Part shown: positions 195 through 47,521 of the stretch, piece by piece | Position numbering within the stretch: position 1 is the stretch's first letter | Layout: every line of letters starts with the position of its first letter | Source of the DNA: an uncultured Paracoccaceae bacterium | Lineage (GTDB): Bacteria > Pseudomonadota > Alphaproteobacteria > Rhodobacterales > Rhodobacteraceae | Length of the DNA: 64,000 nt | Assembly: GCA_947500825.1 (NCBI GenBank) | Contig: CANMTR010000002.1 | Coordinates: 1-64,000 of the forward strand | Reading direction: 5' to 3' | The notes under the pieces: model-generated | The model's database searches: none | The model's input: only the letters and a program-made list of their open reading frames with translations | What the model was told of the DNA's origin: nothing | Position numbers and translations under genes: made by a program

Positions 195-335
195 AGGGCA
201 TGATTTACGACTGGCATCTCACTCTCGGCCAGACGGCTCCCGCCGGAGGGATACGGTTCGGCGACCAAAGAAGAGCTAGCCCGCAAGCTTGCGGAGTATG
301 ACATTTCTGTCGTTGAATACTATAAGCAGATACTA

Positions 336-1076
336 ATGCGCTGGCCAAAGATGACCCTGACCAAGCATGGGATCATATCATATGAAAGAAGAGGCGCGGT
401 TTTTAGGCTTCTAAACATGCCTGAAACTCACTCTGAACTGCATGAGGCAATTAGCTTCTACGACGCCAAGATTGAAGAATGGATTGCGCGCAAACAGTCT
501 ACCGAACACAGCTCCCTTGGTCAGGCCTCCGTTCGATACCAAGTCCTTAAACAAGCTCACGGAAAATGTCAGCTTTGCGGAATACCCGCAGCTCTACGGC
601 CTATAGATATTGACCATATCGTTCCTCGATCGAAGGCTGATAAGCACGGCCGCGTGATAAAGGACGGCAAGCTCATCGACGTAAACGCGCCCGACAATCT
701 TCAGGCGCTCTGCTTTGTGTGCAATCGCTCTAAACGCAATGCGGACCAAACGGACTTTCGCCGAAAGCGCAAGCTGGTCCGCGATTTGGTCCCCGAGATG
801 ATAGAAAAGGAAGGACGCCGGCCTCGAATTCGAAACCTGATGGGCCAACATCTTAAGCAGGCCTTGGCAGAAAAACTGATTGAAGAGCACTCAGAATTTA
901 TAGCAGCAAGCACCAAGCACGAACGAGCCAGTGAGCTCGCGGATTTGATTGAAGTTGCACTCGCAATCGCTAAAGAATATGGATACTCGAAAGGCCAGAT
1001 CCTGGCACTGATGGAGAAGAAACGCGCAACACATGGAGCCTTTGAGCGTGGCTATTTTTACGAGGACGATCAATAG
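336..1076 (+). CDS. HNH endonuclease fused to MazG-like NTP pyrophosphohydrolase (5'-truncated)
   Basis: The first ATG gives 246 residues. Residues 78-81 and 126-129 are CxxC pairs around an HNH core (DH at 93-94, CN at 129-130), a zinc-braced HNH nuclease fold. Residues 146-241 begin KLVRDLVPEMIEK and carry EEHSEF and ELADLIE, the acidic helices of MazG/phosphoribosyl-ATP pyrophosphohydrolase-like enzymes. The same frame is open upstream from 204 with no ATG, GTG or TTG, and reads as a plausible amphipathic helix. The native N-terminus is therefore probably lost at the transposase junction. The gene converges on the DndD-like operon. Likely role (inference): DNA cleavage coupled to nucleotide-pool hydrolysis in phage defence. 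Whether it is still expressed is unknown. Confidence 0.72.
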   Translation: MRWPKMTLTKHGIISYERRGAVFRLLNMPETHSELHEAISFYDAKIEEWIARKQSTEHSSLGQASVRYQVLKQAHGKCQLCGIPAALRPIDIDHIVPRSKADKHGRVIKDGKLIDVNAPDNLQALCFVCNRSKRNADQTDFRRKRKLVRDLVPEMIEKEGRRPRIRNLMGQHLKQALAEKLIEEHSEFIAASTKHERASELADLIEVALAIAKEYGYSKGQILALMEKKRATHGAFERGYFYEDDQ

Positions 1077-1086
1077 CGTACTCGAA

Positions 1087-1114
1087 GAAGTAATTGAAAT
1101 ATCTCCGTTACTTC
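1087..1114. terminator. Possible hairpin between convergent genes
   Basis: GAAGTAA (1087-1093) and TTACTTC (1108-1114) form a perfect 7-bp inverted repeat with a 14-base loop. It lies between the convergent HNH-MazG gene and the end of the DndD-like operon. No T-run follows directly, so a terminator role is weak. Confidence 0.3.
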
Positions 1115-1157
1115 CGGCCGATGCCGATCGCCCTTCTAATTGCATTCATTTTTGTCG

Positions 1158-1604
1158 CTAAAAATTTGCCAATTCTGTGATGTCATCAAGCATCGTGTGC
1201 TCTTCCTCCTCTCGCTGAACAAGTGATAACAGGCCTTCGCGCCAGTCTTGTTTTCCATCCCAAATCTCGCGCTTCAAAATTTCGAGCCCACCGTTCGCAT
1301 ACTCTTCGAAACAGAGAACTCGAGCGGCCTCATTCGACGGCGCAATCATCTTGGGGTTATCCATTTCCTCAATTGCGAGGATGCTCATGATCGTGCGATC
1401 AAAGTCACCCCGGAAAACATCCAGATCGATCGGCTCAGAGCTCTTCTTAAACTCTTTTCGGTTTCCGCGCCTATATCCAAGGGCAGCAGCGAATACCATT
1501 GCGTCCTTGAAAGTTGGAAAGACACCTTTCTCCCTCAGCTCATTGAGCATGTCATCAAACTCAGCGGGTCGTCTAACTCTAGCGGCCAAGGTAGCCCTCC
1601 TCAA
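1158..1604 (-). CDS. Dnd system-associated protein 4-like
   Basis: A 148-residue protein, last gene of the five-gene minus-strand operon. Its N-terminal half (RRPAEFDDMLNELREKG, then FKDAMVFAAALGYRRG) matches my recollection of the small family annotated as Dnd system-associated protein 4, found beside phosphorothioation (dnd) clusters. No catalytic motif is visible. The C-terminal half is rich in Glu and Asp and may bind a partner. Its start overlaps the end of the DndD-like gene by 26 bases, which suggests translational coupling. The function of the family is not established. Confidence is good for the family and low for any role. Confidence 0.65.
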   Translation of the reverse strand: MRRATLAARVRRPAEFDDMLNELREKGVFPTFKDAMVFAAALGYRRGNRKEFKKSSEPIDLDVFRGDFDRTIMSILAIEEMDNPKMIAPSNEAARVLCFEEYANGGLEILKREIWDGKQDWREGLLSLVQREEEEHTMLDDITELANF

Positions 1605-3630
1605 TCTTTGTGAACTCCGGACCGTCGGTGCGCTTTACATAGCTGACATTTTCCTCACGGCCCGTTGATTTCGGTGCATGGTAAACAAGGCTGTACTCTC
1701 TTCCGATATAGGGCCGGCACTTCTCATCTACTTCCTTGCTCCACTGTGAGTTTGATGCGAAAATTACGACTTGGTCAGCAAGCTGCGGAATATGCTCTGC
1801 GATCTTTTCGCGATACTCGCGATCGAGAGCGCCGAAAGGCGAGTCCATAATGATGGGAAACACCCCACCCTTAAAAAATGATCCCTTAGCCTGCTTGCGT
1901 TCTTTTGCAAGGCTCACCAGGCTTGCAATGAAACTGAGACTGATGACCTGGTTTTCACCGGTGGATTTCTCGGATACGGGCTGCTTCCCTATACCAGGCA
2001 GGTCCTTGAAAATCTTGAGCGTGTAATCCGGATCGATTTCCGCATAAAAATCCTTACGCAGAATCGACTGAAAGGTTTCATTCACTCGTTCGGAAAGACG
2101 CTTGCGGGTTTCTTCGGCTAGCGCTTCATGTAAGCCATCCACAAGGCTCTTGCAGTCCTCCGCAAATTCCAGCCTGCGGCGCGCTACGTCCTCCTTCTCG
2201 GACTTGGATTTAACCTTCTCGATTTCCTTCCGAATCCCGGCCAGTTCCTCGTCATACTGCTTAATCGCATCACCGGCTTTAGCGATCTTTAGCTGCTCAT
2301 CGGCCTGAAGCCGGCCGAGCTCGGTACGACGTTCTTCCAAACGTTTCACATCTTCGATCTCTGAAGAACCGAGCGTACTGCTTATCTCATCGAGGGCCTG
2401 AGAAATTTCTTTCAGGCGCTGTTTGAGCTCGGCCTCTTTCGCTGACCAACCCGTAATCTGTTTATAGAGACGTTCTCGCTCCCGTGGCATCGCCCGCAGG
2501 TTGCTCACTGTCTCCGTAAAGGCGGCCTCGAGGTCCTCACCCGTCGCCCGGTCCCGGTATGCTTCTACGGCTTTTCTTTGTGCTGTGCCCTCTGTGAGCT
2601 CACTTCCACAGATGCAGGTCCCTTCGTGCAGCAGGTCATCGACAAAGGTACGCCGTATCTTGTAGGGCAGCTCACCGCGGCGGCGGCAATCCTCAAGCTT
2701 TTCCGATACTGAGGTGATACTGTCTTTCAGGAACGCGAGGGCGCCGCTCTGCGCAATAACCTCCATCCGTGCCTGGCGAAGCTCCTCGAGATCGTCCTTA
2801 ACGCTCTGGTTCTCATTCTCCAGTGAGCGGCGCTGTTCCGCTTTGGCCTTGACGTCGGCGATCTCCTCATATGCCGCATTGATCGCGTCAATTTCGTTCT
2901 GGTAGCCGACGCGGTTCACCTCGGCTATCTCCCTGGCCTCCTCGTGCCGCTTGCGTTCATCAACGGCTTTTTCCTGACGCGAGAGCAGCCCCCGGTAATC
3001 AGAAGAAGCCGTTTCGCTCGCCTCTTTCCGGAGGTCCTTGATCACGAGCCGGCCTAGATGGTCGCTCGCCCGCTCGACAATCTCCAAACCCATCAAGGTT
3101 CGTATGGCATCACGGATCTCACCGGCGGCCGAAACGTTCGCCAACTTCTCGATCCGCTCACCATTGAAGAAGAAATACGAGTGCATCTTCTCGGGGATGA
3201 GTTGGTTAATCTGACTCGAAGGATTTTGCGAGCGTTGGAATTTCCCGCTGGCGTCCACCCAAGTCAAGCTTGGCACGGACTTTCCGATGGCCTCGGCCTC
3301 CAGTCCCTCTCCTGTTCGCCGGTACTCCTGCTTCCTACTGACTGTGTAGACCGCTCCCTCGTGTTCAAATTCCAGCTCAAGAAACAGTTCTGCAATTTCA
3401 CCGGGCTTTGTCTGCGAGAGTGCGAGCTCATTTAGTATCGTCTGCTCGCCAGTGTCGAAATCAGTATGGCCGTATAGAACCCACTTAAAGGCGTTCAGCA
3501 AGGACGTCTTGCCCGCACCATTCTCCCCGTGAATAACTGTGATGCGTGTTTGATCATCAACCTCGAATTTCAGCACACAGTCGCCATGAAACTGTCGAAA
3601 ATTTCGAAGCAGAAGGCGTTTGATTCTCAT
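1579..3630 (-). CDS. DndD-like SMC/RecF-type ATPase
   Basis: A 683-residue SMC-like ATPase. The Walker A motif GENGAGKT is at residues 35-42. Long heptad-rich coiled-coil arms flank a hook-like turn with TCICGSEL, a Cys pair that may bind zinc or dimerise. The C-terminal head has a signature-like STGENQVISLS and a Walker B/D-loop IIMDSPFGALD. This is the layout of DndD, the ATPase of DNA phosphorothioation systems, and of RecF/Rad50-like proteins. dndA, dndC and dndB are absent here, so the protein may serve a modification-independent system. The gene overlaps the 63-residue gene upstream by 4 bases (ATGA) and the following small gene by 26. GC content is clearly lower than in the prophage. 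Confidence 0.75.
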   Translation of the reverse strand: MRIKRLLLRNFRQFHGDCVLKFEVDDQTRITVIHGENGAGKTSLLNAFKWVLYGHTDFDTGEQTILNELALSQTKPGEIAELFLELEFEHEGAVYTVSRKQEYRRTGEGLEAEAIGKSVPSLTWVDASGKFQRSQNPSSQINQLIPEKMHSYFFFNGERIEKLANVSAAGEIRDAIRTLMGLEIVERASDHLGRLVIKDLRKEASETASSDYRGLLSRQEKAVDERKRHEEAREIAEVNRVGYQNEIDAINAAYEEIADVKAKAEQRRSLENENQSVKDDLEELRQARMEVIAQSGALAFLKDSITSVSEKLEDCRRRGELPYKIRRTFVDDLLHEGTCICGSELTEGTAQRKAVEAYRDRATGEDLEAAFTETVSNLRAMPRERERLYKQITGWSAKEAELKQRLKEISQALDEISSTLGSSEIEDVKRLEERRTELGRLQADEQLKIAKAGDAIKQYDEELAGIRKEIEKVKSKSEKEDVARRRLEFAEDCKSLVDGLHEALAEETRKRLSERVNETFQSILRKDFYAEIDPDYTLKIFKDLPGIGKQPVSEKSTGENQVISLSFIASLVSLAKERKQAKGSFFKGGVFPIIMDSPFGALDREYREKIAEHIPQLADQVVIFASNSQWSKEVDEKCRPYIGREYSLVYHAPKSTGREENVSYVKRTDGPEFTKIEEGYLGR

Positions 3631-3818
3631 TTCTTAACCTCCCGCTCGATTAATTGCTTGATACGCTGCGCAATTTCCTTCTCAACGCTACCCGCTGAAC
3701 TTAGATTGCGGTAACTTTGATACTCGTGCTCGATTTCGAGTATCTCATTAACCGTCGTTCTCACACGTGGCGACGCTGCTTTCAATATATCGCGAGGGGA
3801 GAGATTATCACTGCTCAT
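3627..3818 (-). CDS. Small protein of the DndD-like operon
   Basis: A 63-residue, highly charged, probably all-helical protein (RIKQLIEREVKK at the C-terminus). Its stop codon overlaps the start of the DndD-like ATPase (ATGA), and it lies 54 bases after the helicase gene. Small genes at this position in DndD-like loci are annotated, as I recall, as DNA modification system-associated small proteins. No catalytic motif can be seen. It is most likely a structural or regulatory partner of the ATPase. Its conserved position and tight overlap argue that it is a real gene despite its size. Confidence 0.6.
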   Translation of the reverse strand: MSSDNLSPRDILKAASPRVRTTVNEILEIEHEYQSYRNLSSAGSVEKEIAQRIKQLIEREVKK

Positions 3819-3872
3819 CTGCCCGCAGTCCTTTCTTTGCGTAAGTGTCAGTATTCGAGAGACATTTCGCGC

Positions 3873-5972
3873 TTAATAGTCAAGAAGCCTGAGTTTCTCC
3901 TTGACAAGACGTATCTTCGATAGGGCCTCTCCGTGGTTCTCCGCAAGTTCCGCGAACTCATTGAATCTTGACAGCTCCCGACGCATGAGGGACCGCTCCA
4001 CGCTCGAGACACCCTTATCCTCAAGGATTTCGGGACGTGGTGTAATGATAAAATCATAGATTGACGCGCGGTCCTTACCTGGAAATCTCCGCAAGACGCG
4101 GCCGCGGCGCTGTATGAATTCCTTTGGGTTGGTTGAAGAGGCAAGGATGTAGGCTGTCTCCGTCATGGGGACATCCACACCCTCGTCCAGGCATCGAATG
4201 GCCAGTAGAACCTGGAGATCGCCGGCTGCGAACTGTTCCAACAGACGGCTTCGCTCGTCGTTGCTTTCTTCCGATGTGAATTTATTCGCACGAAGCCCCA
4301 GCCCTGAACCAATCCGCTCAAGAGCTGTATCGATATATCTCTTCTCTTCTTCCTTGCTATCGCCGCAATATACGAGCGTATGATGCGCTTCCCCCTGCTC
4401 CTTCAACAGGCCGAGCAGCGCAGGGAGCTTGCTTTTCGCCTTGCCGATTAGCCGCGCACGGCGGATCAGGAGTTTCTTGAGAGCCTCGCTGCCGTCTTTG
4501 TCATCAGGCTTTTCTCCTTGCGCAAAGAGCTTGCTGATTTGTAGGGAGAGCTCATCATATTCCAGCTGCTCCTCATCATCAAAATGAACGAGAACCGGAT
4601 AGTAGAAGTAGCGGCAAAGGAACCCACCTTCGATAGCTCTATCGAGCCCAAACTCCAGTACGGTCTCACCGAAGTACTTTTTGAGCTCGGCCGATCCCTC
4701 TTCGTCCCCGGCGCGATCTGGCGTCGCAGAAAGTCCAAGTCGAAAATTGGCATTCCAAGGCAAGGAAGCAAGAGCGTTTCGCGCTCCCAGGTTATGCATT
4801 TCGTCACCGACAAAAAGTAGATGACCTGGCGCCTGCTCGATTAGCCCCTGAAAGGGCTTGTCGCGCAGAGATGCATTCACAACAATGAACATGCCGTGCC
4901 GCTTCACCTTGGCACGGAGATCGTTGAAAAGGCCCTGCGCCTCATTCATCCAGCGCATGACTCCACCATAACACAGGACGGGCTCGTACCCGAACTCTCT
5001 GGCCTCCTTGGCCCACTGCTCGGCGAGATGTTGGTATGGCACAGCGATGATGGTTAGAAGCTCTCCTCGCTTTTTCATCACATAATCATTCAGGCGGGTT
5101 ACGGCCGTGAGTGCTGTCACCGTCTTGCCGGTACCCGTTGCCATGTGAAGAATACCTTTCCCGTTATTCTTGAACCAGTTCCTGATGCCCTCTTCCTGAT
5201 AGTCGCGAAGCCGGCCGTCTTTCAAGAAGTGCGGCGGAACACGTGGAGAGTGGGCCTCCTTTTCTGGAGATGAGTCGAGAAAGAGATCATAGTGCCGTGA
5301 GGATCGGCGCGCCTGCTCAACGAAAGCGCTTAGATCGGCTTCTCTTGGGTCGTGTACTGCGAGGTTCGGGTCCTGGCCCTGCCACATGCGCTCAAAGGAC
5401 GCTTCGATGGCATCGTTGCGCTGCTCACTTTCTTCAGAATACCAATCGCAAAAGACGCTAAAAGCCTCCCAATTGGTGCGCGCGCCGCCCGTCAGATTGT
5501 ATGAGCCCAAAAACCCAACGCGGTTTCCTTCATCATCGCTGAACTGCCCCTGCTTCGCGTGCATAATGCCCGAAAGCCGGTTGCGTGGGATACCGATCTT
5601 GAAGGTAAGGACTTCGTCGATAATCAGCCATCCCAAGGCTTCACGCGTACGCTGGGTCAGGCCAGAAAATAGTTCATGATAGGAGCGAGAGATAACTTCC
5701 CGAATGCGCTCTTCCCGGCAGGCGCCATTGTCGGCGAGCACCCTGAAGTCATCTTCCGTGAGTTCGGGCGAGATGATCCAGCGCGCCCTTCCGCCGCGCA
5801 AAGCAAACTCTGCCATCCCATGCGCGGCATCCCGTAGCCATGCGGTACTGAAATAACCGACTGCGACGTCGTAGGTGAACGCCCGCTCAAGGACAGGATC
5901 GAAAAATTCAGCGATGGGATCGTGCTCGCTGGTCGTCACATAGAAGGGTAGAGAGATATCCTTCAGGCTCAC
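3873..5972 (-). CDS. PLD-like nuclease / DEAD-box superfamily 2 helicase
   Basis: A 699-residue protein with two modules. Residues 1-200 resemble a phospholipase D-type nuclease domain: VAVGYFS near 37, a HAK at 138-140 and GSYNLT at 156-161. The second HKD motif is not evident, as is common when this domain precedes a helicase. Residues 250-690 form an SF2 helicase with GTGKT at 280-284, DEMH at 390-393, GLSATPDR, and the motif VI QRRGRVLRR. Similar proteins are annotated as restriction enzymes of DNA phosphorothioation systems. It starts 3 bases after the stop of the sigma-like gene. Likely role (inference): ATP-driven DNA unwinding or translocation with cleavage of foreign DNA. Confidence 0.75.
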   Translation of the reverse strand: MSLKDISLPFYVTTSEHDPIAEFFDPVLERAFTYDVAVGYFSTAWLRDAAHGMAEFALRGGRARWIISPELTEDDFRVLADNGACREERIREVISRSYHELFSGLTQRTREALGWLIIDEVLTFKIGIPRNRLSGIMHAKQGQFSDDEGNRVGFLGSYNLTGGARTNWEAFSVFCDWYSEESEQRNDAIEASFERMWQGQDPNLAVHDPREADLSAFVEQARRSSRHYDLFLDSSPEKEAHSPRVPPHFLKDGRLRDYQEEGIRNWFKNNGKGILHMATGTGKTVTALTAVTRLNDYVMKKRGELLTIIAVPYQHLAEQWAKEAREFGYEPVLCYGGVMRWMNEAQGLFNDLRAKVKRHGMFIVVNASLRDKPFQGLIEQAPGHLLFVGDEMHNLGARNALASLPWNANFRLGLSATPDRAGDEEGSAELKKYFGETVLEFGLDRAIEGGFLCRYFYYPVLVHFDDEEQLEYDELSLQISKLFAQGEKPDDKDGSEALKKLLIRRARLIGKAKSKLPALLGLLKEQGEAHHTLVYCGDSKEEEKRYIDTALERIGSGLGLRANKFTSEESNDERSRLLEQFAAGDLQVLLAIRCLDEGVDVPMTETAYILASSTNPKEFIQRRGRVLRRFPGKDRASIYDFIITPRPEILEDKGVSSVERSLMRRELSRFNEFAELAENHGEALSKIRLVKEKLRLLDY

Positions 5973-5974
5973 GC

Positions 5975-8803
5975 TCAGACCCCGAAGTCACCTAGCAGCT
6001 TATCGAGGATTTCGTCCTCACTGCTTGTATCGTTGTTTGCGGCAATGGGGTGTTTCAGGTATGGGTCCAGATCAGTGAAGTCCGACGCCCCGTGGAGCGC
6101 CAGGAAATCCCTCAGCCTTCCTAGACCACCGTCTGTCCCTATCCCCTCATCAAGCGCGACGTCTCGAGCTTCAAGATATACAGAAACTTCTGGCGGCTCT
6201 TCGCGCAGGTGGACGACATCTCCTTTGATCTCGAAGTCCTTGTACCCTGACAAAAAACCCTTGAGCGGGCGCGTGTGATACTCCCCGAAGATCGGGGCGA
6301 TCAGCTCGGCAAGCGCAAGTGCAGACCTTGGTCCGGGAGACAGCGCGAGACAGCAGCTGGTGTGGAGCTGCTGCTGACGCTGTTCGTCTCCGAACACTCG
6401 GCCGGTCAGATCATAGTGTCCGCGTCCAACGGACACGGCGAGTGGAGAGTTATCGAGACTGGTTGCGATCGAAGTCAAGAAGGTGTCGCGCCGTCCCTCC
6501 AGCGCTTCAGCAATCTCTTCCAGCGAGAGCGCCCGACCCGCTTCGGAGAGCACCGCGATGATTTCCTCATTTAGTCCCAAGAAACCTTGGCCGGACGAGA
6601 AGTTGGTCAGGCCGACCATCAAGCCTCGCCTGACATCGAACCTTTCATCGTCCTGCAGAATTCCCAGCAGCATATAGTAGTCAAACTGGGTACCGTATTG
6701 CTCCGTTGCCCCCTGGAAGTGCTCTGAGAAAAGGATCTTGACGCTCACAAATTCACCGCGGACTGTCAAAGCGTCATGAACCGTATTCCTGATGGTTTCG
6801 ATATCCTCTTCGCTCAGATTAACGTTTTCGTAGAGATCGTAAGTTCCACGTGCAACAATAAGTACTTCCTCAAGGCCACCGAGCACTGATCCAATTTGCT
6901 GAATACTATCATCTTTGCCGAAAATCTCGTGATTTAGTGCCCTTATCCCCTTGCAGTGAAGTGCGTGTCCAGCTTTACGCAGAATAAGAATATATCGTGC
7001 CGACGCGGGCAGCCGCGGCGCTGAGGCTATGAGATCATCTTCAATGGTCGCATCAAAACTATCTGCGAGCTCCGCTCTTGTCCCGTCAAGCGTGAGATCG
7101 GGAAAATGCTCCGCTACACTGGAGACGCGAATTGGCAAGGATTGTCTCAACACGGCATCGACTAAACGCTGCCGAACCGAGCCCGCAAGGATTTCTGGCT
7201 CTTCCGGCAACTCAAGCATATAGCGTTCAAGTATCCATCCTGCTTCAGTCTGGACACTCTCACTCTCCAGAAACTGCTTGACTCCACCATAAGATATGTC
7301 AATCGCCAAGCGCTGTCCGGGTGTAAGGCTTTTTGCAGCAGAACCTATCTGCTCATCGGTAATGATCTTGCGGTTAGAAAATATGAGGTCGATAGTGTCT
7401 TCCGACTCTAAGGCTGCGGAAAGCGCCTTCGTCACTTTTTTGTTGCGCATCTTGCGCAGAGCTTTTGCTTCGATCTGACGGATGCGCTCTCGTGTAACGC
7501 CGTGGTCACCGGATATGCGCTCAAGTGTTTCAGGCTCGCCACCGTCTAGGGCGTAACGTCGCTTTATTACTTCCTGCTCACGGGCAGTGAGTTCAGCCAA
7601 GACACGTGGCATGATCTGGCTGATCGAAGCACCCCAGACTGCTGCAGGGTCTGACTTACTCAGCGCGGAAAGGTCGACAGCCTCCAAAGCGAGGACTGCG
7701 GCTAACTCTTGTTTTCTTAAAGGGCGCTGCTCAAGCACTTGCCTGACAATCGGGATACACTCTTCACTGATCCCGAGGGCTTTGACGCGTTCCGCCACAA
7801 TGTCGTCAGTGATACGCGCCAACTCCTGTAGCGACTTGCGCCCACAGTTCTTTTGTTTTCCTAGATGGTGGAGCATATCGCCAAAAGCGCTGAGGAACTC
7901 CAAAAACGGAACGGGATCTTCCGAATACGTATTCAGAAGTAGATTTTTCAGACGAACTGAAGGATAGCGGTCCAGGATTTCATCGGGGAAAAGTAACCCC
8001 TGGTAGAGGCGCTGCGCGGCCTCATGCGCCCGCTGTCTTTCAGCGCTGTCGTCGAGCTCCTCAGCAGAGCTATCCGAAGGGACACTATTCGTGAAACCAA
8101 TTCCTCCAGAGGCGAAAGCTTCCACAACAAGCTCATGCAGCTCGGAGACAGACTTTCTGCCGAGGTTCTGAACGTGTTTTTGGAAATAGACGCGTGCCTG
8201 CTCTGGATCACGCATGTAGTCGGCCACAGTGTCTATAGGAAGTTCCTTCGCGCCGCCAATCGCGTTGCGAAGACGCACAGAGCATTCGCTCTCTGCGACA
8301 AGGTCCTTGATCTTGATCTCGGGCGCGGAGGCGACCTCCGGTAGTGGGCCTGGTACTCTGTCTTGGTCGGATGCGCGCTCTACGCGCGCCTCGATACTAT
8401 GTTGTTCGAACGTCTCCTGCCGAGCCATCGATCCCATCAGGTGTGAGCTGCCCTCCGAGACCCTGCTCCCAGGGCGCTCCTCCATCAAAGCCTTTTCCAG
8501 GTTCTGCACAGTGGCCTGATCGACCTCGTCGACGGCTTCCGCATGCCTTGTCAGCAGGAGGGGGTCGTTCTCCTCAACCAGCTTTGTCCGGCTTGGCTCT
8601 TCGACATGGCTTGAGTCAGCGCTTGGCTCCTGAGGGCGCCTCTCGTCGAGCCCAGGTTCTAAACGCGGCATCGGCTCCGCAGCCGTCGACTCATCGCCGC
8701 GCTGATCTGCACTTGGTACGGCTGCCGGACTCGGTTCCCGCCTCGAAAACGATGTCGGAGACTGGAACAAGCTTGATAATTTCTTGGCGAAGGCTGACAG
8801 CAT
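5975..8803 (-). CDS. Large protein with RNAP alpha-CTD-like and sigma region 4-like domains
   Basis: A 942-residue protein, first gene of the island operon. Residues 1-160 are low-complexity and charged. Two segments (about 165-225 and 280-335) contain NLGRKSVSELHELV and NCGRKSLQELARI, like the helix-hairpin-helix of the RNA polymerase alpha C-terminal domain. Residues 400-453 are a clear sigma-70 region 4: LTAREQEVIKRRYALDGG, then VTRERIRQIEAKALRKMR. The last 480 residues are unassigned and look like a chain of helical or winged domains. It lacks sigma region 2, so it is not a normal sigma factor. Possible roles (inference): autoregulator of the operon, DNA-recognition subunit, or sensor of phage takeover of the polymerase. 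Confidence 0.65.
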   Translation of the reverse strand: MLSAFAKKLSSLFQSPTSFSRREPSPAAVPSADQRGDESTAAEPMPRLEPGLDERRPQEPSADSSHVEEPSRTKLVEENDPLLLTRHAEAVDEVDQATVQNLEKALMEERPGSRVSEGSSHLMGSMARQETFEQHSIEARVERASDQDRVPGPLPEVASAPEIKIKDLVAESECSVRLRNAIGGAKELPIDTVADYMRDPEQARVYFQKHVQNLGRKSVSELHELVVEAFASGGIGFTNSVPSDSSAEELDDSAERQRAHEAAQRLYQGLLFPDEILDRYPSVRLKNLLLNTYSEDPVPFLEFLSAFGDMLHHLGKQKNCGRKSLQELARITDDIVAERVKALGISEECIPIVRQVLEQRPLRKQELAAVLALEAVDLSALSKSDPAAVWGASISQIMPRVLAELTAREQEVIKRRYALDGGEPETLERISGDHGVTRERIRQIEAKALRKMRNKKVTKALSAALESEDTIDLIFSNRKIITDEQIGSAAKSLTPGQRLAIDISYGGVKQFLESESVQTEAGWILERYMLELPEEPEILAGSVRQRLVDAVLRQSLPIRVSSVAEHFPDLTLDGTRAELADSFDATIEDDLIASAPRLPASARYILILRKAGHALHCKGIRALNHEIFGKDDSIQQIGSVLGGLEEVLIVARGTYDLYENVNLSEEDIETIRNTVHDALTVRGEFVSVKILFSEHFQGATEQYGTQFDYYMLLGILQDDERFDVRRGLMVGLTNFSSGQGFLGLNEEIIAVLSEAGRALSLEEIAEALEGRRDTFLTSIATSLDNSPLAVSVGRGHYDLTGRVFGDEQRQQQLHTSCCLALSPGPRSALALAELIAPIFGEYHTRPLKGFLSGYKDFEIKGDVVHLREEPPEVSVYLEARDVALDEGIGTDGGLGRLRDFLALHGASDFTDLDPYLKHPIAANNDTSSEDEILDKLLGDFGV

Positions 8804-8864
8804 GGATACTAAGTTGCTACCTTTTTGTTTTTTCGTGCCTTCTCAGCGCGGGTTGTGCTTCGGT

Positions 8865-8893
8865 AAGTTATCTGACATCGATTTGTGCGTAAA
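8865..8893 (-). promoter_or_regulatory. Candidate promoter of the defence operon
   Basis: On the minus strand TTTACG (8888-8893) and TAACTT (8865-8870) are spaced by 17 bases and lie about 60 bases upstream of the ATG at 8803. This is the only sigma-70-like pair seen between the prophage edge and the operon. Both hexamers match the consensus imperfectly. Confidence 0.35.
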
Positions 8894-8907
8894 CCTTCAG
8901 CGTGGCG

Positions 8908-9135
8908 TCAGTTGGGCAAGAGTATCACACGCATACCGCATTTTGTGCGGTGCACGAGCCGCAGAAGCTCCAGCATTGAGCGCATTTGGCCGTTGTCAAC
9001 TTCGCCCTCGCAGCTCGCGAGTCCGGCATCGTTTATGGCGCGCTTAGCACCTTCCTCGGCCGCGCGCGTCGGGATCGCCTCGAACTCGTGCTCCGGCATG
9101 CGGAAGAAGCCATCCTCGGGTCGTTGTGGGGCCAT
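8908..9135 (-). pseudogene. DUF6127-like phage protein, apparently C-terminally truncated
   Basis: A 75-residue frame with MPEHEFEAIPTRAAEEGAKRA, recalled as the N-terminal pattern of DUF6127 proteins that follow the tail fibre gene in related phages. Those I remember continue after an LLxxxRLxxRT motif into a hydrophobic membrane segment. Here the sequence turns at HRTK (about 8950) into an unrelated short tail (CGMRVILLPN) and stops. The base composition drops at the same point. The missing membrane segment suggests that the prophage/island junction lies inside this gene. It starts 13 bases after the end of the DUF2793 gene. Confidence 0.5.
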
Positions 9136-9147
9136 GGCGCGCCTCCC

Positions 9148-10224
9148 TCAGCCGATCTTCGCACCCCAAAAGGACGTCTGGTCGGCCGCGAAGTAGCCGT
9201 CCGCGTCGCGGAAGTTGCCTTGTAGCTCGACAGTGTCGCCGGCGGTGAGCGCGGTCATCGTCTGCAGCCAGAGCGCCGTCGCCTCGGAGACGTGCGCCCC
9301 GCTGATCTCGCCCCGCGACCCGCGGATTTCGGTCGTGCCGTTCAGAGCGAGCCGCCCGCTCATCCGCGCCGACGTGCTGGCGTTCACCTTGTAGAGCAGC
9401 GTAGCGCCGAAGAGGTAAGTGCCGTCCGCGGGCGTCACGAACTGGTTATTGGCGGCGTCGAAGGCGGCCTGATCGTTGTAGTCGGTGTTGTTGATGGCGA
9501 TCTTCGTCCAGGTCCCGACGCCGACGTAGTTGTCGTAGTTCGTGTACGCCTTGAAGCGCGGCAGCCGCGGCTGATCGACGATGCCGGTGGCGTTGTCGAC
9601 GCTGATGCCGTCGAAGAAGGTGCTGCCGTCGGCGGAGACCGCGAGGCGAAAGCGGTCCGAGCCGAACAACCCAAGCAGCGCCTTGGTCACGAAGCCGGTC
9701 TGCAGGGTCAGCCCGAGGTCGCTGCCCGCCACCTCCTTGTTCATGGTGTAGAACAGATCGCCGGTGCCGCCCTCGGCCACGGTCTTCGCCGTCCAGAGCG
9801 CGTCGTTCAGCTTGGCCGAGAACGGGTTCGACGCATCCGCCGTCGTCCCCAGCCCAAGGAGCGCGAGGTTCTGCAGTGCTGCGGGCGTCGTGCCGATCCA
9901 GCCCGCGCCGTCATAGACCACCAGCAACTCCTCGTCCTCGATCCACGCCCGCCAGCCGGTCCGCGCCGGCAGGCGTAGCCAGGCGCCATCGGTCCAGAGC
10001 GCGACGTTCAGGTCCCAGCCCGCCCAGTCGCCGGTCGCGCCCGAGGCGACGATGTAGCGGTCGCCATCGGCGGGGCTGGGAGGCGGTACGGTCAGGTCGC
10101 GGTCGAGCACCGAGAGCTGGACAAGCCCGTCGAGGATCCGCAGCGCCTCGTTGTGGGTGACGTGCTTCTGGGCCTGCGCCGCCAGGATGTAGGGCAGCAG
10201 GAGATGGGACGTGGCATCGGACAT
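9148..10224 (-). CDS. DUF2793 protein with C1q-like C-terminus (probable tail fibre / receptor-binding)
   Basis: A 358-residue protein. The N-terminal 120 residues (LPYILAAQAQKHVTHNEALRILD, shortened by me to its key feature: the AQAQKHVTHNEALR core) are the DUF2793 pattern found at the tail tip of Rhodobacteraceae phages and GTAs. The last 130 residues are beta-rich with Gly and aromatic positions (TYLFGATLLYKVN, TVELQG) like a C1q/TNF-type jelly roll, a fold often used for trimeric receptor binding. The gene follows the baseplate genes on the minus strand. Receptor binding is inferred from position and fold pattern; no substrate can be named. Confidence 0.6.
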   Translation of the reverse strand: MSDATSHLLLPYILAAQAQKHVTHNEALRILDGLVQLSVLDRDLTVPPPSPADGDRYIVASGATGDWAGWDLNVALWTDGAWLRLPARTGWRAWIEDEELLVVYDGAGWIGTTPAALQNLALLGLGTTADASNPFSAKLNDALWTAKTVAEGGTGDLFYTMNKEVAGSDLGLTLQTGFVTKALLGLFGSDRFRLAVSADGSTFFDGISVDNATGIVDQPRLPRFKAYTNYDNYVGVGTWTKIAINNTDYNDQAAFDAANNQFVTPADGTYLFGATLLYKVNASTSARMSGRLALNGTTEIRGSRGEISGAHVSEATALWLQTMTALTAGDTVELQGNFRDADGYFAADQTSFWGAKIG

Positions 10225-10247
10225 GGGCGGTCTCCAGAACGAAGAAT

Positions 10248-10268
10248 GCCGCCTGCATAGCAGGCGGC
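10248..10268 (-). terminator. Strong hairpin upstream of the DUF2793 gene
   Basis: GCCGCCTGC (10248-10256) and GCAGGCGGC (10260-10268) form a perfect 9-bp stem with a 3-base loop. On the minus strand it is followed by ATTCTTCGTT, only moderately T-rich. It lies between the preceding gene's TAG stop and the DUF2793 start, so it could attenuate transcription or act on readthrough of the stop. Confidence 0.45.
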
Positions 10269-10299
10269 GAACGATGGCGCGGCGTTGAGCGGTGGCGGG

Positions 10300-10680
10300 C
10301 TACCCGCGCTCGGGCGTCTCTGCCGGAATGGCCGACAGAACCGGGTCGGGCTTCGGCGCGTCCCACTTCGCGGTCATCGCGGCCCAGCGATCGATCTCGG
10401 CTCGGAATACCGGATCGTCGATCCGCAGATGAAACGTGTAGAGCCGGTCCACGATCTCGCGCATCAGCGCGCGCATCTCGTCGTCATTGATCCGCGAGAG
10501 CTCGGACCAGGGGATGCGTCTGCCCGTGGCGTCCTCGACGACGACGTCGCTGCCATCGCCCGTTTGCGAGACGGGCGTCAGGCCGGCATGCAGGGTCTCG
10601 AGCTGCGTGTTGCGGACGCAGGCCACAGCCATCACTCTGGCAAGCTGGGCGGCAATCCGGTCTTCGTCCTCAGGGCGCAT
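10300..10680 (-). CDS. Phage protein of unknown function
   Basis: A 126-residue acidic, mostly helical protein starting MRPEDEDRIAAQLARVM, placed between the tail tip gene and the fibre gene. I recall similar proteins at this position in related phages but no function. It ends with TAG, one of the few TAG codons in the late genes. The frame stays open for 25 more codons and runs in frame into the ATG of the DUF2793 gene, with a strong hairpin between. Readthrough would fuse the two proteins, though chance could explain this. Confidence 0.6.
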   Translation of the reverse strand: MRPEDEDRIAAQLARVMAVACVRNTQLETLHAGLTPVSQTGDGSDVVVEDATGRRIPWSELSRINDDEMRALMREIVDRLYTFHLRIDDPVFRAEIDRWAAMTAKWDAPKPDPVLSAIPAETPERG

Positions 10681-10733
10681 GTCCCGAGCCTACGACGTAG
10701 TTCGCGCACCGTGCCAGAACTCATTGTGCCGCC

Positions 10734-13700
10734 TCAGAAGCTCAGAGTGACGGATTTGGGCGCTCCCCGCCCGACGAGGGCGGAGAGTTGGTAGATGCGG
10801 ATGTGGAGCATGTCGCCGGGGGCGAGCAGTGCGCCCCAGTCGGCGGTCTGGTCGGCGGCCGTGTAGACCGCGCTGGTGGTGGCGGTGCTCAGCACCCGCT
10901 TCACGGTGACGCCGTCGAGAATCTCGACATCGTAGGCTTCGAGTTCCTCGGCCAGCGGCACTTCGAGCCCGCCCCAGCTGTCGGCCGCCAGCGCGCGGGA
11001 CCGGCGCGTCCAGCGGATCGTCAGATCGCCGGGCGCACGCGGCTTGCGCCATGGCTGTTCGACATGGGCGACCGAGAACGGCCGCAGCCCCACGCCCTGA
11101 GGCGTGAAGGATTGCGCGACATAGGTCTCATCGCTGACCGGACGGCTCGCCGGGCCGATGCGCCAGTTCAACGGGATGCCGAGATCGGCCTCGGCGATCG
11201 GCAGCGATGCGAGGCTGTCGTCGAGCACGACGACCCGAGCCCCCGCGGGCGCGGGATTGCCCATGGCGCCCTCGGTGCCACGCTGGCCACACAGGAGCCG
11301 GGTCAGCCGATACCGGCCCGGGGCGATGAGCTCGGCCGCGCCCGCCTGGACGATCTCCCAGACGCCCGACGCGGTTTCCACCGCCAGCGCGTTGGCCCCT
11401 CCGAACAGCGTCAGGTCGGTGACGCTTTCCAGCGTGCCGGTGAGCAGGTCGAGGAACAGCGCATTGCCGAGGTCGAAGCGCGACGTCGGCCCCGCGTAGA
11501 ATTCCGAGAGCAGCGCGCCGATCCGGGCGCGAGTGCCGAACGTGGTCAGCTGCTCGAAGCCGTCTGTCGAGGGGCTCCGGAAGACAGCAATCTCGCCCGG
11601 CCAAGGGACGGCATGCGCCGCAGCGAAGGGCCGGTGCGCCGGCTGGTCCTCGGTCAGCTGCGGCAGATCGAGCAGCACCGCCTCGGGCGCGCCGACGACG
11701 ACCGCCTGAGAGAGCGCCGAGGGCCGCGGCGCGCCGGGCGGCAGGTCGTAGGCCTCTCGATCCTGGCGCACCGCCTCGATGCCGCGCGCGTCGGCATCGA
11801 CGATGGAGACGAGCCGCAGCGGGACGGCGCGACCGTCATGGGCGAGCGTCACGACATCGGCGGGATCGAGCGCGAGGCGCGAGGGCGGCAGTCGGAAGAT
11901 CGCGCTCTCACGGCCAGTCCACGCCTCCATGAGCGCGCGACGGCAACGCCGCTCGGCCTCCTCGAGTGGCACCGCCATGGGAAAGGACTCCGAGGCGATG
12001 CGCGTCGTGTCGACGGTGATGCGCCGCGCCTCGACCTGCGCGGCCTCGTAGTCCTCGTCGGCTCGGGCGACCTGCCATTTCAGGGCTTGGGGTAGCTCGG
12101 TCTCCTGGCCGCGGGTCAGTTCGAGGACGTCGCCGTCTCGAGCGGCGACGAGAGCGTCTGGTGCAACACTGGCCACCGCCGCCCGGCCGCGCATGACGAA
12201 GCGGATCACGCCCTCGGTTTCGACGGCGTCGAAGCCGAAATGGCGCGACAGCGCGGTGATCGATGCGCGCGGGCTTTCCAGCGCCGTGATGGCGTAACCC
12301 TCCACCGCGCCCCAAAGCCCGGTGACGTCGATGCGATCTTCGGGCAACCCCGCCCGCAGGCAGAGGTGCCGCACCAGTGCCGCCAGCGACACCGCCCCCA
12401 GCCGCCCCGTCAGCCAGTGGCCGAGGCGCCAGTTCGCGCCGTCCGTCCAGACGTCGGTCAGCGCCGGGAAGAACGGATAGGGCCGCGCGTCCCAGGTCCA
12501 GGCGGCGCATTCCGGCACATGCACCATGCGGCCGCCGTAGACCGGGGACAGCGGGTTGTTCGCGGCCTCGCCCCACCAGAGATACGTCGCCTCGAGATAA
12601 GCGCGCTGGATCGCGTCGTCCCGCCAGCCCCGCGAGAAATGCGGCGTGAAGCTCTCCGAGGACTTGGGATCGAAGAAGACGTTCGGCTGGTTCGTGCCCC
12701 GGTCGATGGCGGGACAGCCGAGCTCGGTGAACCAGATCGGCTTCGACTGCGGCGTCCATGCCGTCGGCGTGCCGCTCTCTACTCCGCCCGGGCGGTCGTA
12801 ATGCGCGTTCGACCACCAGGCCCGCAGATCCTTGTAGCGGAAGACCCACGGCTTGGCCGCGCCGCCATCCGTGATTGGGTTGCGAACCTGCGCGGAGCGA
12901 TCAGCGGCACTGGCATAGAACCAGTCGAAACCTTCGCCGCCCGCGATGCTGGTCTGCAGATACGCCCGGTCGTAGATTGCGGGCCAGCCCTCGGCCGCCT
13001 CGGCATGCTCGAAGCCGTCGCGCCAGTCCGACAGCGGCATGTAATTGTCGATCCCGACGAAATCGATCTCCGGGTCCGCCCAGAGCGGATCGAGGTGGAA
13101 GAACACGTCACCGCTGCCATCGCCCGGCTGGTGGCCGAAATACTCCGACCAGTCGGCGGCGAAGCTGATCGCCGTTCCCGCTCCGAGGATGCTGCGCACG
13201 TCGCCCGCCAGATCGCGAAACGCCTGCGCCGCAGGATACGCGCTGGCGCCCGAGCGGATCGTGGTCAGCCCGCGCATCTCGGTCCCGATGAGGAAGGCGT
13301 CGACGCCGCCCGCCGCCGCGCAGAGATGGGCGTAGTGCAGCACCATTCGGCGAAGACCCCAGTCTCCGGAGGGCCCTGTCCAGGAGATCGTCTCGCTGGA
13401 GATGGCAAAGTCGGACGGGCTGGCGCCGCCGAAGAAGGCCGCGACCTGGCTTGCGGCCGTGGCAGTCTTGTCCACGGTCCCTGCGAAACCCGCCGCCGGA
13501 GAACAGGTGATCCGCCCCCGCCAGGGGAATACAGGCTGGCCGATCTCGGCGGCGTTGTCGGAATAGGGGTTCGGCAGCGTGTTGCCGGGAGGCACGTCCA
13601 TCAGGATGAAGGGATAGAATGTCACCCGCAGCCCGCGCGCCTTCATCTCCTGGATCGCCTGCACCACGGCGAAATCGGCTGGCGTGCCGCCGTAGACGGG

Positions 13701-14702
13701 TCGGTCCTGGTCATCACGGCTGACGAGATGGGCGGCAGCCCGGCTCACGCCGTTCACGCTCCATGTTTGCGGGCTCGTGGTCTTTTCCGAGACCTCGACG
13801 CCCGGCCGGATCGTGCAGTCGCCTACGCGCAGGTCGTTGCCGAACCAGGCAACGACGAGGCTCACGCTCTCCACGTTCGGCGCCATAGCCTGCAGCCTGT
13901 CCAGCGCCACGACCATGTCGGCGGTGTCAGAAAGCGCGTTCAGGTTCTCCGGGGTCTGCGCCCCGCCACCGCCCTTCCGAATGCCGGTCGTCGCGTAGGT
14001 GAACTCGCCCGAGGCCGGGATCATGGTGACAGCCTGCGTCAGCCCCTCGGCGGTGTCGGGATCGGCGAGCGGCCGGAAGACCTCGAAGGAGAGCTGCGGC
14101 AGGCGGTTGCCGTAGCTGCCGAGCGGCAGCTCCTCGAAGACCACATAGGCCGTACCGCGATAGGCCGGCGTGTTCGCGGCGCCCATCTTTGCCGCGATGA
14201 ACGGGTCAGCCGCCTGCGCCTCGTCGCCGGGATGCCAGCGCCAGGTGACGCCGGAGAGGTCCATCGGCTTGCCGTCGGCCCAGATGCGCCCGATGCCGGT
14301 GATGGGGCCTTCGCAGAGCGCCACCGCAAAGGATGCGTAGTAGAGATACTCGGTGGTCTTGACCTTGCCGCCGCCCCCGCCGCCCTTGCCGCCGCCCTGC
14401 GTGGTGGTCTTGGTCTCCTCGCGGAAGTCGGTAGCCCAGATCACGTTTCCGCCCATGCGCATGCGGCCGTAAACGCGCGGGATGACGGCGCCCTCGGTCG
14501 AGGACGTGATCCGGAGGCTGTCGAGGCGCGGGCCTTCAATGCGCTGAGTCGGCGCAAGCGAGGACACGATCCAACTGTCGACGACGGACCCGATGGTCGA
14601 GCCGACGAAGCCGCCGATGGTCGCCGCGCTCACGCCGAGGATCGCGCCGCCGATCGAACCGCCAATGGCGGCGCCTGCCGCGCCGAGGACAAGCGTTGCC
14701 AT
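10734..14702 (-). CDS. GTA-type tail tip / baseplate multidomain protein (GTA TIM-barrel)
   Basis: A 1322-residue protein with the layout of the large host-specificity protein of gene transfer agents. It has a Gly/Ala-rich hydrophobic N-terminus, then a phage tail-hub region. The middle contains WFTELGCPAIDRGTNQPNVF, part of the glycoside hydrolase-like TIM barrel (GTA_TIM). The remainder holds a putative tail-associated domain and fibronectin-like beta segments near the C-terminus. It follows the NlpC/P60 gene by 9 bases in the GTA order. Role: central tail tip, cell-wall contact and DNA ejection. The long opposite-strand frames here are shadows. Confidence 0.85.
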   Translation of the reverse strand: MATLVLGAAGAAIGGSIGGAILGVSAATIGGFVGSTIGSVVDSWIVSSLAPTQRIEGPRLDSLRITSSTEGAVIPRVYGRMRMGGNVIWATDFREETKTTTQGGGKGGGGGGKVKTTEYLYYASFAVALCEGPITGIGRIWADGKPMDLSGVTWRWHPGDEAQAADPFIAAKMGAANTPAYRGTAYVVFEELPLGSYGNRLPQLSFEVFRPLADPDTAEGLTQAVTMIPASGEFTYATTGIRKGGGGAQTPENLNALSDTADMVVALDRLQAMAPNVESVSLVVAWFGNDLRVGDCTIRPGVEVSEKTTSPQTWSVNGVSRAAAHLVSRDDQDRPVYGGTPADFAVVQAIQEMKARGLRVTFYPFILMDVPPGNTLPNPYSDNAAEIGQPVFPWRGRITCSPAAGFAGTVDKTATAASQVAAFFGGASPSDFAISSETISWTGPSGDWGLRRMVLHYAHLCAAAGGVDAFLIGTEMRGLTTIRSGASAYPAAQAFRDLAGDVRSILGAGTAISFAADWSEYFGHQPGDGSGDVFFHLDPLWADPEIDFVGIDNYMPLSDWRDGFEHAEAAEGWPAIYDRAYLQTSIAGGEGFDWFYASAADRSAQVRNPITDGGAAKPWVFRYKDLRAWWSNAHYDRPGGVESGTPTAWTPQSKPIWFTELGCPAIDRGTNQPNVFFDPKSSESFTPHFSRGWRDDAIQRAYLEATYLWWGEAANNPLSPVYGGRMVHVPECAAWTWDARPYPFFPALTDVWTDGANWRLGHWLTGRLGAVSLAALVRHLCLRAGLPEDRIDVTGLWGAVEGYAITALESPRASITALSRHFGFDAVETEGVIRFVMRGRAAVASVAPDALVAARDGDVLELTRGQETELPQALKWQVARADEDYEAAQVEARRITVDTTRIASESFPMAVPLEEAERRCRRALMEAWTGRESAIFRLPPSRLALDPADVVTLAHDGRAVPLRLVSIVDADARGIEAVRQDREAYDLPPGAPRPSALSQAVVVGAPEAVLLDLPQLTEDQPAHRPFAAAHAVPWPGEIAVFRSPSTDGFEQLTTFGTRARIGALLSEFYAGPTSRFDLGNALFLDLLTGTLESVTDLTLFGGANALAVETASGVWEIVQAGAAELIAPGRYRLTRLLCGQRGTEGAMGNPAPAGARVVVLDDSLASLPIAEADLGIPLNWRIGPASRPVSDETYVAQSFTPQGVGLRPFSVAHVEQPWRKPRAPGDLTIRWTRRSRALAADSWGGLEVPLAEELEAYDVEILDGVTVKRVLSTATTSAVYTAADQTADWGALLAPGDMLHIRIYQLSALVGRGAPKSVTLSF

Positions 14703-44375: not shown

Positions 44376-45059
44376 TCAGTCGATGTTGAGACGGTAGCCG
44401 CCGCGGCGGTCGGAACGGATCAGCTGCCGCCAGTCCTTCTGCGACTTGAAGACGTCGGCCATGCGCAGGCTCTTCGAGCCGCCCGAGGACAGGATGGCCT
44501 TGCCGCTCTGCCAGGATTCGCCGCGCTGCGCGGCCTCGTGCAGGGCGCGGACCACCTGTGCCTGAATCGGGCCGAGCCGGAAGCGGTAGCCGTTGCAGCG
44601 CACCTCCTGGTAATCGGCTGAGGCGATGAAGGTGCTCTCCTCCATCGCCGAGCCGCCGGAGGAGAACTCTGACTGGAGCTCGAAACGATCGCGTTCTTCG
44701 CGCCTTAGCAGCAGATCGCCGATCATCACGAAGACCGGCTTGGCCTCGCCATAGAGCGACGCGTAGTCCGCGCGTGGCGTGCGAAACTCGCTGACATGGA
44801 GTTCGCCGCAGCGGAACAGTTGGAAGACATCGCAGGCGTGCAGGTCGAGCAGCCCACTGAAGGGCTTCTGCTCCCACGGCACGCGGAACCGCTCGCCGTC
44901 CTGACCCTCCTCGTAGTCGCCGAACTCGACCGGCTCGCCGAAGACGCGCACCGACAGACGGAGCTTGTCGTTCTCGGCCAGGTAGACGAGGTCCGTCTCG
45001 GAGATCCGCCAGCGCTCGAGCACCTCGGGGAGCGTGAAATACAGCTTGTCGATGTGCAC
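44376..45059 (-). CDS. Phage early protein of unknown function, divergent from the repressor
   Basis: A 227-residue protein. The N-terminus (LYFTLPEVLERWRISETDLV) looks like a MerR/excisionase-type HTH, the middle is beta-rich, and the C-terminal part (GPIQAQVVRALHEAAQRGE, then SLRMADVFKSQKDWRQLI) resembles a winged helix. It is transcribed away from the CI-like repressor gene across a 108-base promoter region, the position of an early regulator in many temperate phages. A Cro-like or activator role is inference. Confidence 0.6.
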   Translation of the reverse strand: MHIDKLYFTLPEVLERWRISETDLVYLAENDKLRLSVRVFGEPVEFGDYEEGQDGERFRVPWEQKPFSGLLDLHACDVFQLFRCGELHVSEFRTPRADYASLYGEAKPVFVMIGDLLLRREERDRFELQSEFSSGGSAMEESTFIASADYQEVRCNGYRFRLGPIQAQVVRALHEAAQRGESWQSGKAILSSGGSKSLRMADVFKSQKDWRQLIRSDRRGGYRLNID

Positions 45060-45167
45060 GCGCCCCTCCGATTCCGCTGCCTGATGTTTACCTTTTGTTC
45101 TTATTCGCTTGACGGCCGTCGATCAATCCGATTTTATCCTATTTCATCCACAGATGGGTGGGGAAAC
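45060..45167. promoter_or_regulatory. Divergent immunity-region promoter/operator
   Basis: This AT-richer gap separates the repressor gene (plus) from the early protein gene (minus). On the plus strand TTGACG (45109-45114) is followed after 18 bases by TTTATC (45133-45138), and GGTGGGGA lies just before the ATG at 45168. The dyad GACGGCCGTC (45111-45120) overlaps the -35 and is a natural repressor site. Confidence 0.5.
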
Positions 45168-45845: not shown

Positions 45846-45846
45846 G

Positions 45847-46578: not shown

Positions 46579-46761
46579 CAAATGCTTGTCATCACTCCAC
46601 CCGTAGACGATGTTCGAAGCCTACAAAGACCAGCCAAGGCCACCTTCTTGATAAGGCAAAAGATGCGACAGCAACAATAGTGCCCATAATCCTCGATTAT
46701 CGCCTTCTCACCCGCACCTCTCTCCAATGAACAACCCAAGAAACCACCAGCCGAAGATATC

Positions 46762-47382: not shown

Positions 47383-47521
47383 GACAATCAGCTGCCGCCA
47401 CAGTACATCGTACTTGGCTACCATCCCTTTCGCGCTACTACGACAACCCTTTGTTTTATCTTGAATTACCCCGCCACGAGCGGTGAACACGGAGCAAACC
47501 GCCTCAGGAGGTTCGCTCCCC

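Follow-up and report, generated by a model that had tools for sequence, protein, structure and literature searches.

We describe a five-gene operon at the start of a 64,000-nucleotide stretch of DNA (hereafter the window) from an uncultured Paracoccaceae bacterium (GenBank assembly GCA_947500825.1, contig CANMTR010000002.1, positions 1–64,000). The operon very probably combines a PbeABCD antiviral module of the CxC ABC-ATPase/DndE type with an additional lead gene and would work with the DNA phosphorothioation genes dndABCDE, which are encoded on another contig of the same genome. This assessment concerns what the system is and how it relates to dnd; the role of the lead protein is graded separately. 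Our overall verdict is of a known system with a lineage-restricted extra component of unproven function.

A PbeABCD core preceded by an additional gene

The five genes lie on the minus strand and are listed in the order in which they would be transcribed.

5975–8803, minus strand: lead gene, 942 amino acids (aa); alpha-CTD-like, sigma-4 and winged-helix protein
3873–5972, minus strand: pbeA, 699 aa, GTG start; PLD nuclease fused to an SF2 helicase; PADLOC PbeA match (1e-231)
3627–3818, minus strand: pbeB, 63 aa; small protein assigned by position and size
1579–3630, minus strand: pbeC, 683 aa; DndD-like ABC ATPase with a CxC (CIC) hook; PADLOC PbeC match (2e-265)
1158–1604, minus strand: pbeD, 148 aa, TTG start; TIGR04062 (DNA phosphorothioation-associated protein 4), 153.2 bits against a cut-off of 74.25

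The initial annotation, made from the letters of the window, had described one tight minus-strand operon of five genes, and the list of open reading frames confirms all five. They are separated, starting from the lead gene, by 2 and 54 bases and then overlap by 4 and 26 bases. The identities it had proposed also hold, with sigma-70 region 4 in the lead protein, PbeA, a 63-aa protein in the position of PbeB, PbeC and TIGR04062 in the last gene. The nearest relative found, a locus of Palleronia aestuarii (L001), encodes the five proteins at 95–100% identity. Ratios of nonsynonymous to synonymous substitution rates (dN/dS) between the window and L001 are 0.36 for the lead gene, 0.11 for pbeA, 0.00 for pbeB, 0.04 for pbeC and 0.06 for pbeD, so that all five genes look to be under purifying selection. 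This, together with a gene order that is unchanged in the relatives, argues against a chance arrangement. The guanine-plus-cytosine (GC) content of the first 8 kb of the window (52–55%, versus approximately 66–73% over most of the remainder) fits an acquired island.

The profile matches, the CxC hook and the invariant nuclease and helicase residues identify the four-gene core, from its predicted proteins, as PbeABCD, a described phosphorothioate-linked defence module in which PbeB is assigned by position and size alone. The PADLOC match of PbeA covers residues 4–683, and its PLD and helicase motif residues (H138, K140, G156-S157-N159 and E169, and those of the Walker A, DExH and QRxGR motifs) are invariant in 11 of 11 aligned proteins. 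The hook of PbeC is CIC (residues 339–341); a CxC motif is present in all nine PbeC rows of the alignment versus neither of the two DndD rows, and the match of PbeC to the DndD profile TIGR03185 (186 bits) falls short of the cut-off of 246. Homologues of the 63-aa protein are encoded in all eight other close loci (45–100% identical).

PbeABCD was published in 2019 (Xiong et al., 2019; PMC6459918). The four genes described there together with DndCDEA correspond to those of the operon in kind, in order and roughly in size (PLD-helicase, 66 aa, ATPase, 152 aa) and likewise lie beside dnd modification genes. That set is archaeal, whereas the operon described here is bacterial, is separated from dnd by an IS66 element in this strain, and has a 942-aa lead gene, 2 bases ahead of pbeA, that is not among their four. 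The operon also has the CxC hook, the HKD-SF2 protein, the small protein and the DndE-like partner in common with the CxC ABC ATPase-DndE systems (Rakesh, 2024; PMC10853773), where PbeD (TIGR04062) is the DndE-cognate component and the systems occur with or without dnd. PbeABCD with and without dnd is thus already in print (PMC6459918, PMC10853773). The stand-alone, undescribed system proposed in the initial annotation is therefore not supported, and PbeAC without nearby dndCD was itself reported together with PbeABCD (PMC6459918).

The dnd genes probably adjoin the operon across an IS66 insertion

The window corresponds to positions 1–64,000 of contig C2 of the genome (G000), and its base 1 is the contig end, which accounts for the apparent lack of dnd genes. 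The statement that none lies within 8 kb of an operon complete on both sides was true inside the window alone. Contig C41 of the same genome carries dndA, B, C, D and E and a Dnd-associated methyltransferase gene (dnd_rel_methyl), all above the NCBIfam cut-offs; the profiles TIGR03183, TIGR03235 and TIGR03233, which together cover dndA, dndB and dndC, score 673, 506 and 543 bits there, respectively. The dnd set is complete but forms a separate transcription unit, convergent with the pbe operon. The boundary between the two contigs is marked by these features:

1–254, no strand assigned: right end of an IS66-family element, at the contig end (window base 1)
255–262, no strand assigned: 8-base target-site duplication of IS66; the same 8 bases precede the IS66 left end on C41

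In L001, which is without the IS66 insertion, pbeD ends at 9952 and the methyltransferase gene at 10121, so that the two convergent sets lie approximately 170 bases apart. Homology to L001 stops at position 1147 in the window and at 12838 in C41. Both contigs terminate in IS66 sequence, oriented as expected if a single element spanned the gap, and the 8 bases immediately flanking it are identical on the C2 and C41 sides. IS66 elements create 8-base target duplications. Among the five other IS66 ends detected in the genome, C46 pairs with C59 and C22 with C80, each pair by an 8-mer of its own; for C37 no partner was found. IS66 copies sit at contig ends of this assembly in all seven contigs (C2, C41, C22, C37, C46, C59 and C80). 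From the synteny with L001, the homology breakpoints and the shared duplication we infer that dndABCDE lay directly beside the pbe operon and that the IS66 insertion and an assembly break now separate them. The end of the dnd cluster would be approximately 3.5–4 kb from pbeD in this strain, an estimate that adds approximately 120 bases, an IS66 element of approximately 2.5–3 kb (a guess from L043, to which the left end on C41 was matched over only 24 bases) and window positions 255–1158. The operon that was initially described as being without dndABC thus has these genes in its own genome and, judging from the IS66 flanks and synteny, probably next door.

Close homologues of the whole five-gene set are present in nine genomes or plasmids: the window genome, L001 (G002), L002 (G691), L003 (G786), L004 (G787), L027 (G426), L028 (G586) and plasmids L009 and L010. 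Conserved co-occurrence of the five genes without dndABC would have favoured a distinct system, but dndC is present in all nine (seven by profile and two by annotation). The lead gene of L004 comes immediately after dndCDEA. In L003, dndC is on the same contig; approximately 17 kb separate it from the lead gene, and the dnd cluster begins, at its nearer edge, approximately 12 kb from that gene. The lead gene of G426 is split by a contig end, one half following dndA on C99 and the other preceding pbeA on C73. Neighbouring dnd genes are not obligatory for Pbe in general, as 42.1% of a set of 553 PbeAC loci have dndCD within 10 kb; 320 of the 553 do not, and 165 of these are also without a methyltransferase (PMC6459918).

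A search of the genome with TIGR03238 (DptF, which we take to be DndF) gave no matches, whereas the control, a Priestia plasmid with an annotated dptF (W01), scored 494 bits; the search did not extend to DndG and DndH. Pbe is therefore the one restriction partner seen. The case shows that a window starting at a contig end can make a two-module system look stand-alone.

Domains and divergence of the lead protein

The lead protein is divided as follows, with coordinates in the window:

8108–8317, minus strand: residues 163–232, alpha-CTD-like module I; PF03118, 17.5 bits, below the cut-off of 23.8
7778–8050, minus strand: residues 252–342, possible second alpha-CTD-like module, or partly sigma-3-like; motif match only, helical in the model
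7403–7642, minus strand: residues 388–467, sigma-70 region 4; PF04545, 54.8 bits against a cut-off of 24.1, with an RpoD-like helix TRERIRQIE
5978–7393, minus strand: residues 471–942, C-terminal winged-helix-like region (weakly HARE-HTH-like); family-specific in the genomes searched

Sigma-70 region 4 is matched by Pfam in all eight aligned members of the family, alpha-CTD in seven (E values up to 1) and HARE-HTH, weakly, in three; PF03118 rises above its cut-off in the related proteins of L014 and L016. The top Protein Data Bank matches of the lead's sigma region 4 are SigA and RpoD, and include the helix TRERIRQIE. Many of the RpoD matches start near residue 310–320, which is consistent with a possible sigma-3-like stretch ahead of sigma-4. 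The lead protein does not fit an RNA polymerase sigma factor, which would combine sigma regions 2 and 4; among the sigma regions, Pfam matches Sigma70_r4 only. Alpha-CTD and sigma-4 are the polymerase parts that read upstream promoter DNA, and the sequence of the lead protein supports DNA binding.

The first 160 residues are the least conserved (29% identity in L002 and 13% in L004) and are disordered in the model. Alpha-CTD-like module I, sigma-4 and the C-terminal half have about equal identities (67, 69 and 65% in L002; 43, 39 and 44% in L004), and the second alpha-CTD-like stretch has lower ones (37% and 32%, respectively). Over aligned stretches the lead protein is less conserved than PbeA, PbeC and PbeD, at 59% versus 85, 84 and 88% in L002, 47% versus 82, 83 and 87% in L003, and 41% versus 66, 70 and 74% in L004. 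Together with its dN/dS (0.36 versus 0.04–0.11 for PbeA, C and D), this divergence is as would be expected of a target-facing subunit.

We found no description of a sigma/alpha-CTD component of Pbe in the main texts of the literature searched. In the main text of PMC10853773, sigma is mentioned a single time, in connection with an insert in DndH, and section 16 of that article names no sigma/alpha-CTD gene. Sigma-HTH-like domains are described in BREX proteins (PMC12839542), and plasmid records already annotate lead-like genes as 'sigma factor-like helix-turn-helix DNA-binding protein'. The MZA system has a sigma-70 region 4 module in common with the lead protein, in MzaA (NF041931, PDLC02203). 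We rejected MzaA as its identity, as the match to NF041931 spans 96 of 726 positions and reaches 73.4 bits where the cut-off is 800, and among the PADLOC matches listed the other four operon proteins have none to MZA.

Distribution of the lead gene among Pbe loci

PbeD is rare, being detected in 2 of 14 genomes of the genus, 6 of 394 in a sample of the family and 3 of 385 in a sample of the class (one above the cut-off), with the window genome in each count. Searching the class sample with the whole lead protein was uninformative about the family: 382 of the 385 genomes matched, but among the matches listed from genomes other than G000 none exceeded 54 bits, and these covered approximately 70–185 residues around sigma-4. 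We therefore used the C-terminal half, which was detected in 4 of 394 family genomes, all four among the six that are PbeD-positive; the two family samples, of equal size and with shared handles, are taken to be the same genomes. The lead gene was not found in the other two PbeD-positive family genomes (G620 and G647), whose Pbe genes are divergent. In viral contigs, 16 pattern hits to the lead family were obtained and none was confirmed.

We derived a sigma-4 model from 11 lead-like proteins and searched 666,649 bases in 41 loci (overlaps included) with it. It matched 12 open reading frames at E ≤ 0.001, each a lead-like gene next to pbe genes: those of 10 seed loci, L026 (a repeat of L002) and one new, in Arthrobacter (L014). 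The Arthrobacter gene lies approximately 11 bases ahead of pbeA and encodes alpha-CTD and sigma-4 above the Pfam cut-offs; its pbeA and pbeC contain frame breaks. Overall, a sigma-4 gene touches the pbe genes or lies within approximately 0.3 kb of them in 13 of 28 distinct PbeA-bearing loci, namely the nine close homologues, Rhizobium plasmids L011 and L012, Aurantiacibacter L016 and Arthrobacter L014. The sigma-like protein is thus, as initially suggested, a component of the operon, conserved in the Rhodobacterales loci found, and related sigma-4 genes also belong to Pbe operons from Rhizobium, Aurantiacibacter and Arthrobacter. In Aurantiacibacter (L016, 7878–14880), a site-specific methyltransferase gene stands in front of the Pbe operon and a gene for a 437-aa alpha-CTD/sigma-4 protein, both domains above the Pfam cut-off, stands last; no dndC or annotated dnd gene was found in the 20 kb examined.

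The 28 loci were gathered by similarity to the window proteins and are not a random sample. They comprise the window, 4 loci from a similarity search, 17 of 127 PbeA-matching plasmid records and 6 loci (L027–L032) from PbeD-positive genomes, with L002 and L026, which are the same stretch, counted once. L014 and L022 are unannotated and were covered by tblastn and the sigma-4 model only. In L015 and L017 (Rhizobium indigoferae and a Sphingomonadaceae plasmid), the Pbe genes lie beside those for a PAPS-reductase-family protein, DUF4007 and a cysteine desulfurase, which are Ssp-like rather than Dnd-like. L029, another Pbe locus with Ssp-like phosphorothioation genes nearby, has partial DndA- and DndC-like hits.

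Possible roles of the lead protein

PbeABCD requires phosphorothioate in the host and halts the replication of unmarked virus without cleavage (Xiong et al., 2019; PMC6459918), whereas PbeA has been argued to cleave DNA and PbeB could be a negative regulator (Rakesh, 2024; PMC10853773). Combining these proposals, the Dnd enzymes would mark host DNA with phosphorothioate, PbeC and PbeD would scan DNA, and the PbeA nuclease-helicase, restrained by PbeB, would act on unmarked invading DNA. The lead protein would recognise promoter-like DNA, namely -35 and upstream elements, through its sigma-4 and alpha-CTD-like modules, and would position or license the Pbe machine at such sites. We lean tentatively, at somewhat less than even confidence, towards such a DNA-binding subunit, given the size of the lead protein, its several modules and its fast divergence.

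Several observations weigh against this interpretation of the operon and its lead protein. PbeA scores 585 bits against TIGR04095, just below the NCBIfam cut-off of 600, and the 63-aa protein assigned as PbeB is matched by no PADLOC or NCBIfam profile. The alpha-CTD match of the window's lead protein is itself under the Pfam cut-off. Its fold model is poor (pLDDT 65.9, pTM 0.31), and a Foldseek search with it gave no match at E ≤ 0.001, sigma-4 being what was recognised. The fast divergence of the lead protein may instead reflect relaxed constraint, and a first gene with DNA-binding domains also has the look of an ordinary regulator. Among 398 genomes of the phylum sample, the C-terminal half was detected in one, the window's own. 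In the other 15 of the 28 Pbe loci (L013, L015, L017–L025 and L029–L032; absence is weak evidence at L030, a 3-kb contig, and at L031, which ends near a contig end), the search turned up no sigma-4 gene, so that Pbe can do without it. Defence by the operon is, moreover, a prediction from its genes alone.

Only slightly less plausible than a subunit of the Pbe machine is a lead protein that solely regulates transcription of the pbe (and perhaps dnd) operon via -35-like sites, with no action on invading DNA. Its position as first gene of the operon and its promoter-type DNA-binding modules fit such a regulator, and other defence operons have upstream regulators. The very large size of the protein, its long disordered N-terminus and its several DNA-binding modules are less easily reconciled with this role; furthermore, the related gene in L016 stands last rather than first, and no direct or inverted repeats of at least 14 bases were found in window positions 8800–9150.

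We consider it unlikely that the lead protein acts as a promoter or RNA-polymerase mimic, with sigma-4 occupying -35 sites or the beta-flap to shut down transcription of the invader. The resemblance of its sigma-4 to RpoD and SigA and the promoter-reading nature of alpha-CTD and sigma-4 favour the idea, as do the top two Foldseek hits, which are SigA region 4/beta-flap chimeras (neither reaching E 0.001). The phenotype published for Pbe, however, is blocked replication (PMC6459918), sigma-4 modules are commonly used for DNA binding, and binding to the polymerase is a prediction.

It is also very improbable that the system is decaying in this strain, its Pbe genes rendered non-functional by an IS66 insertion and an HNH gene that separate them from the modification genes. 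The element does lie between the two halves and the HNH frame runs into the IS66 end, but ten pbe, lead and dnd genes (dndC compared over a chosen 1563-base stretch and dndA left out) are equal in length between the window or C41 and L001, with dN/dS of at most 0.36. Least credible of all is the stand-alone defence system of the initial annotation, reusing Dnd-type parts without phosphorothioation, for although the first 13 kb of the window are without dndABC and PbeAC loci without nearby modification genes exist (PMC6459918), dndABCDE adjoins the operon by the IS66 duplication and synteny and dndC accompanies all nine close loci.

Neighbouring features

One further gene lies between IS66 and pbeD, outside the Pbe operon:

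336–1076, plus strand: HNH-endonuclease protein with a MazG/PRA-PH-like tail

The frame of this gene continues backwards into IS66 sequence, so that the true start may lie elsewhere. PADLOC matches of the protein to PtuB and IscB-like proteins are weak and confined to the HNH core. A relative with 55% identity is encoded beside dndE in L028 (19298–19978), and the protein may be a further Dnd-associated nuclease. On C41 (L006, 1073–4761), two genes lie upstream of dndA, one for an SF2 helicase of 807 aa and one for a 421-aa protein that has no match in Pfam or NCBIfam; L001 retains the two genes, with that for the helicase cut by the end of the locus.

Upstream of the lead gene, a plus-strand frame (8885–9196, starting MRKPSAWRQLG) looks by eye like the remnant of an antisense gene, and is also present upstream of the lead genes of L002 and L003. 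A short stretch common to the window, L001, L002 and L003 in an alignment of seven upstream regions was considered as a candidate operator and rejected, as its other strand reads, by eye, as part of an antisense-gene remnant. Next to the Pbe operon, a gene transfer agent cluster (8908–14702 and beyond) comes to its end, a junction also found in L001. The cluster encodes a 1322-aa protein with matches to GTA_TIM, Phage-tail_3 and Rcc01698_C and, after it, DUF2793 and DUF6127 proteins. Farther along, positions 44796–49556 look like a mobile element: on visual inspection, the proteins encoded there resemble a phage repressor, a DUF2924 protein and a large serine recombinase, and there is a dip in GC content at 46–48 kb (0.58) and a tRNA-Ser gene at 51168.

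Implications for phosphorothioate-dependent defence

How PbeABCD finds and stops unmarked DNA is the question on which the lead protein may bear, with a replication block without cleavage on one side (Xiong et al., 2019) and cleavage on the other (Rakesh, 2024). It is conceivable, albeit rather doubtful, that a subset of Pbe systems gained a promoter-mimicking alpha-CTD/sigma-4 subunit that steers phosphorothioate-dependent defence to the promoters of invaders or blocks RNA polymerase there. If so, invaders would be recognised by the missing sulfur mark where transcription starts. Should the lead protein be a working part of the system, it would offer a genetic handle on the action of PbeABCD, in the form of a single gene with a recognisable -35-reading helix.

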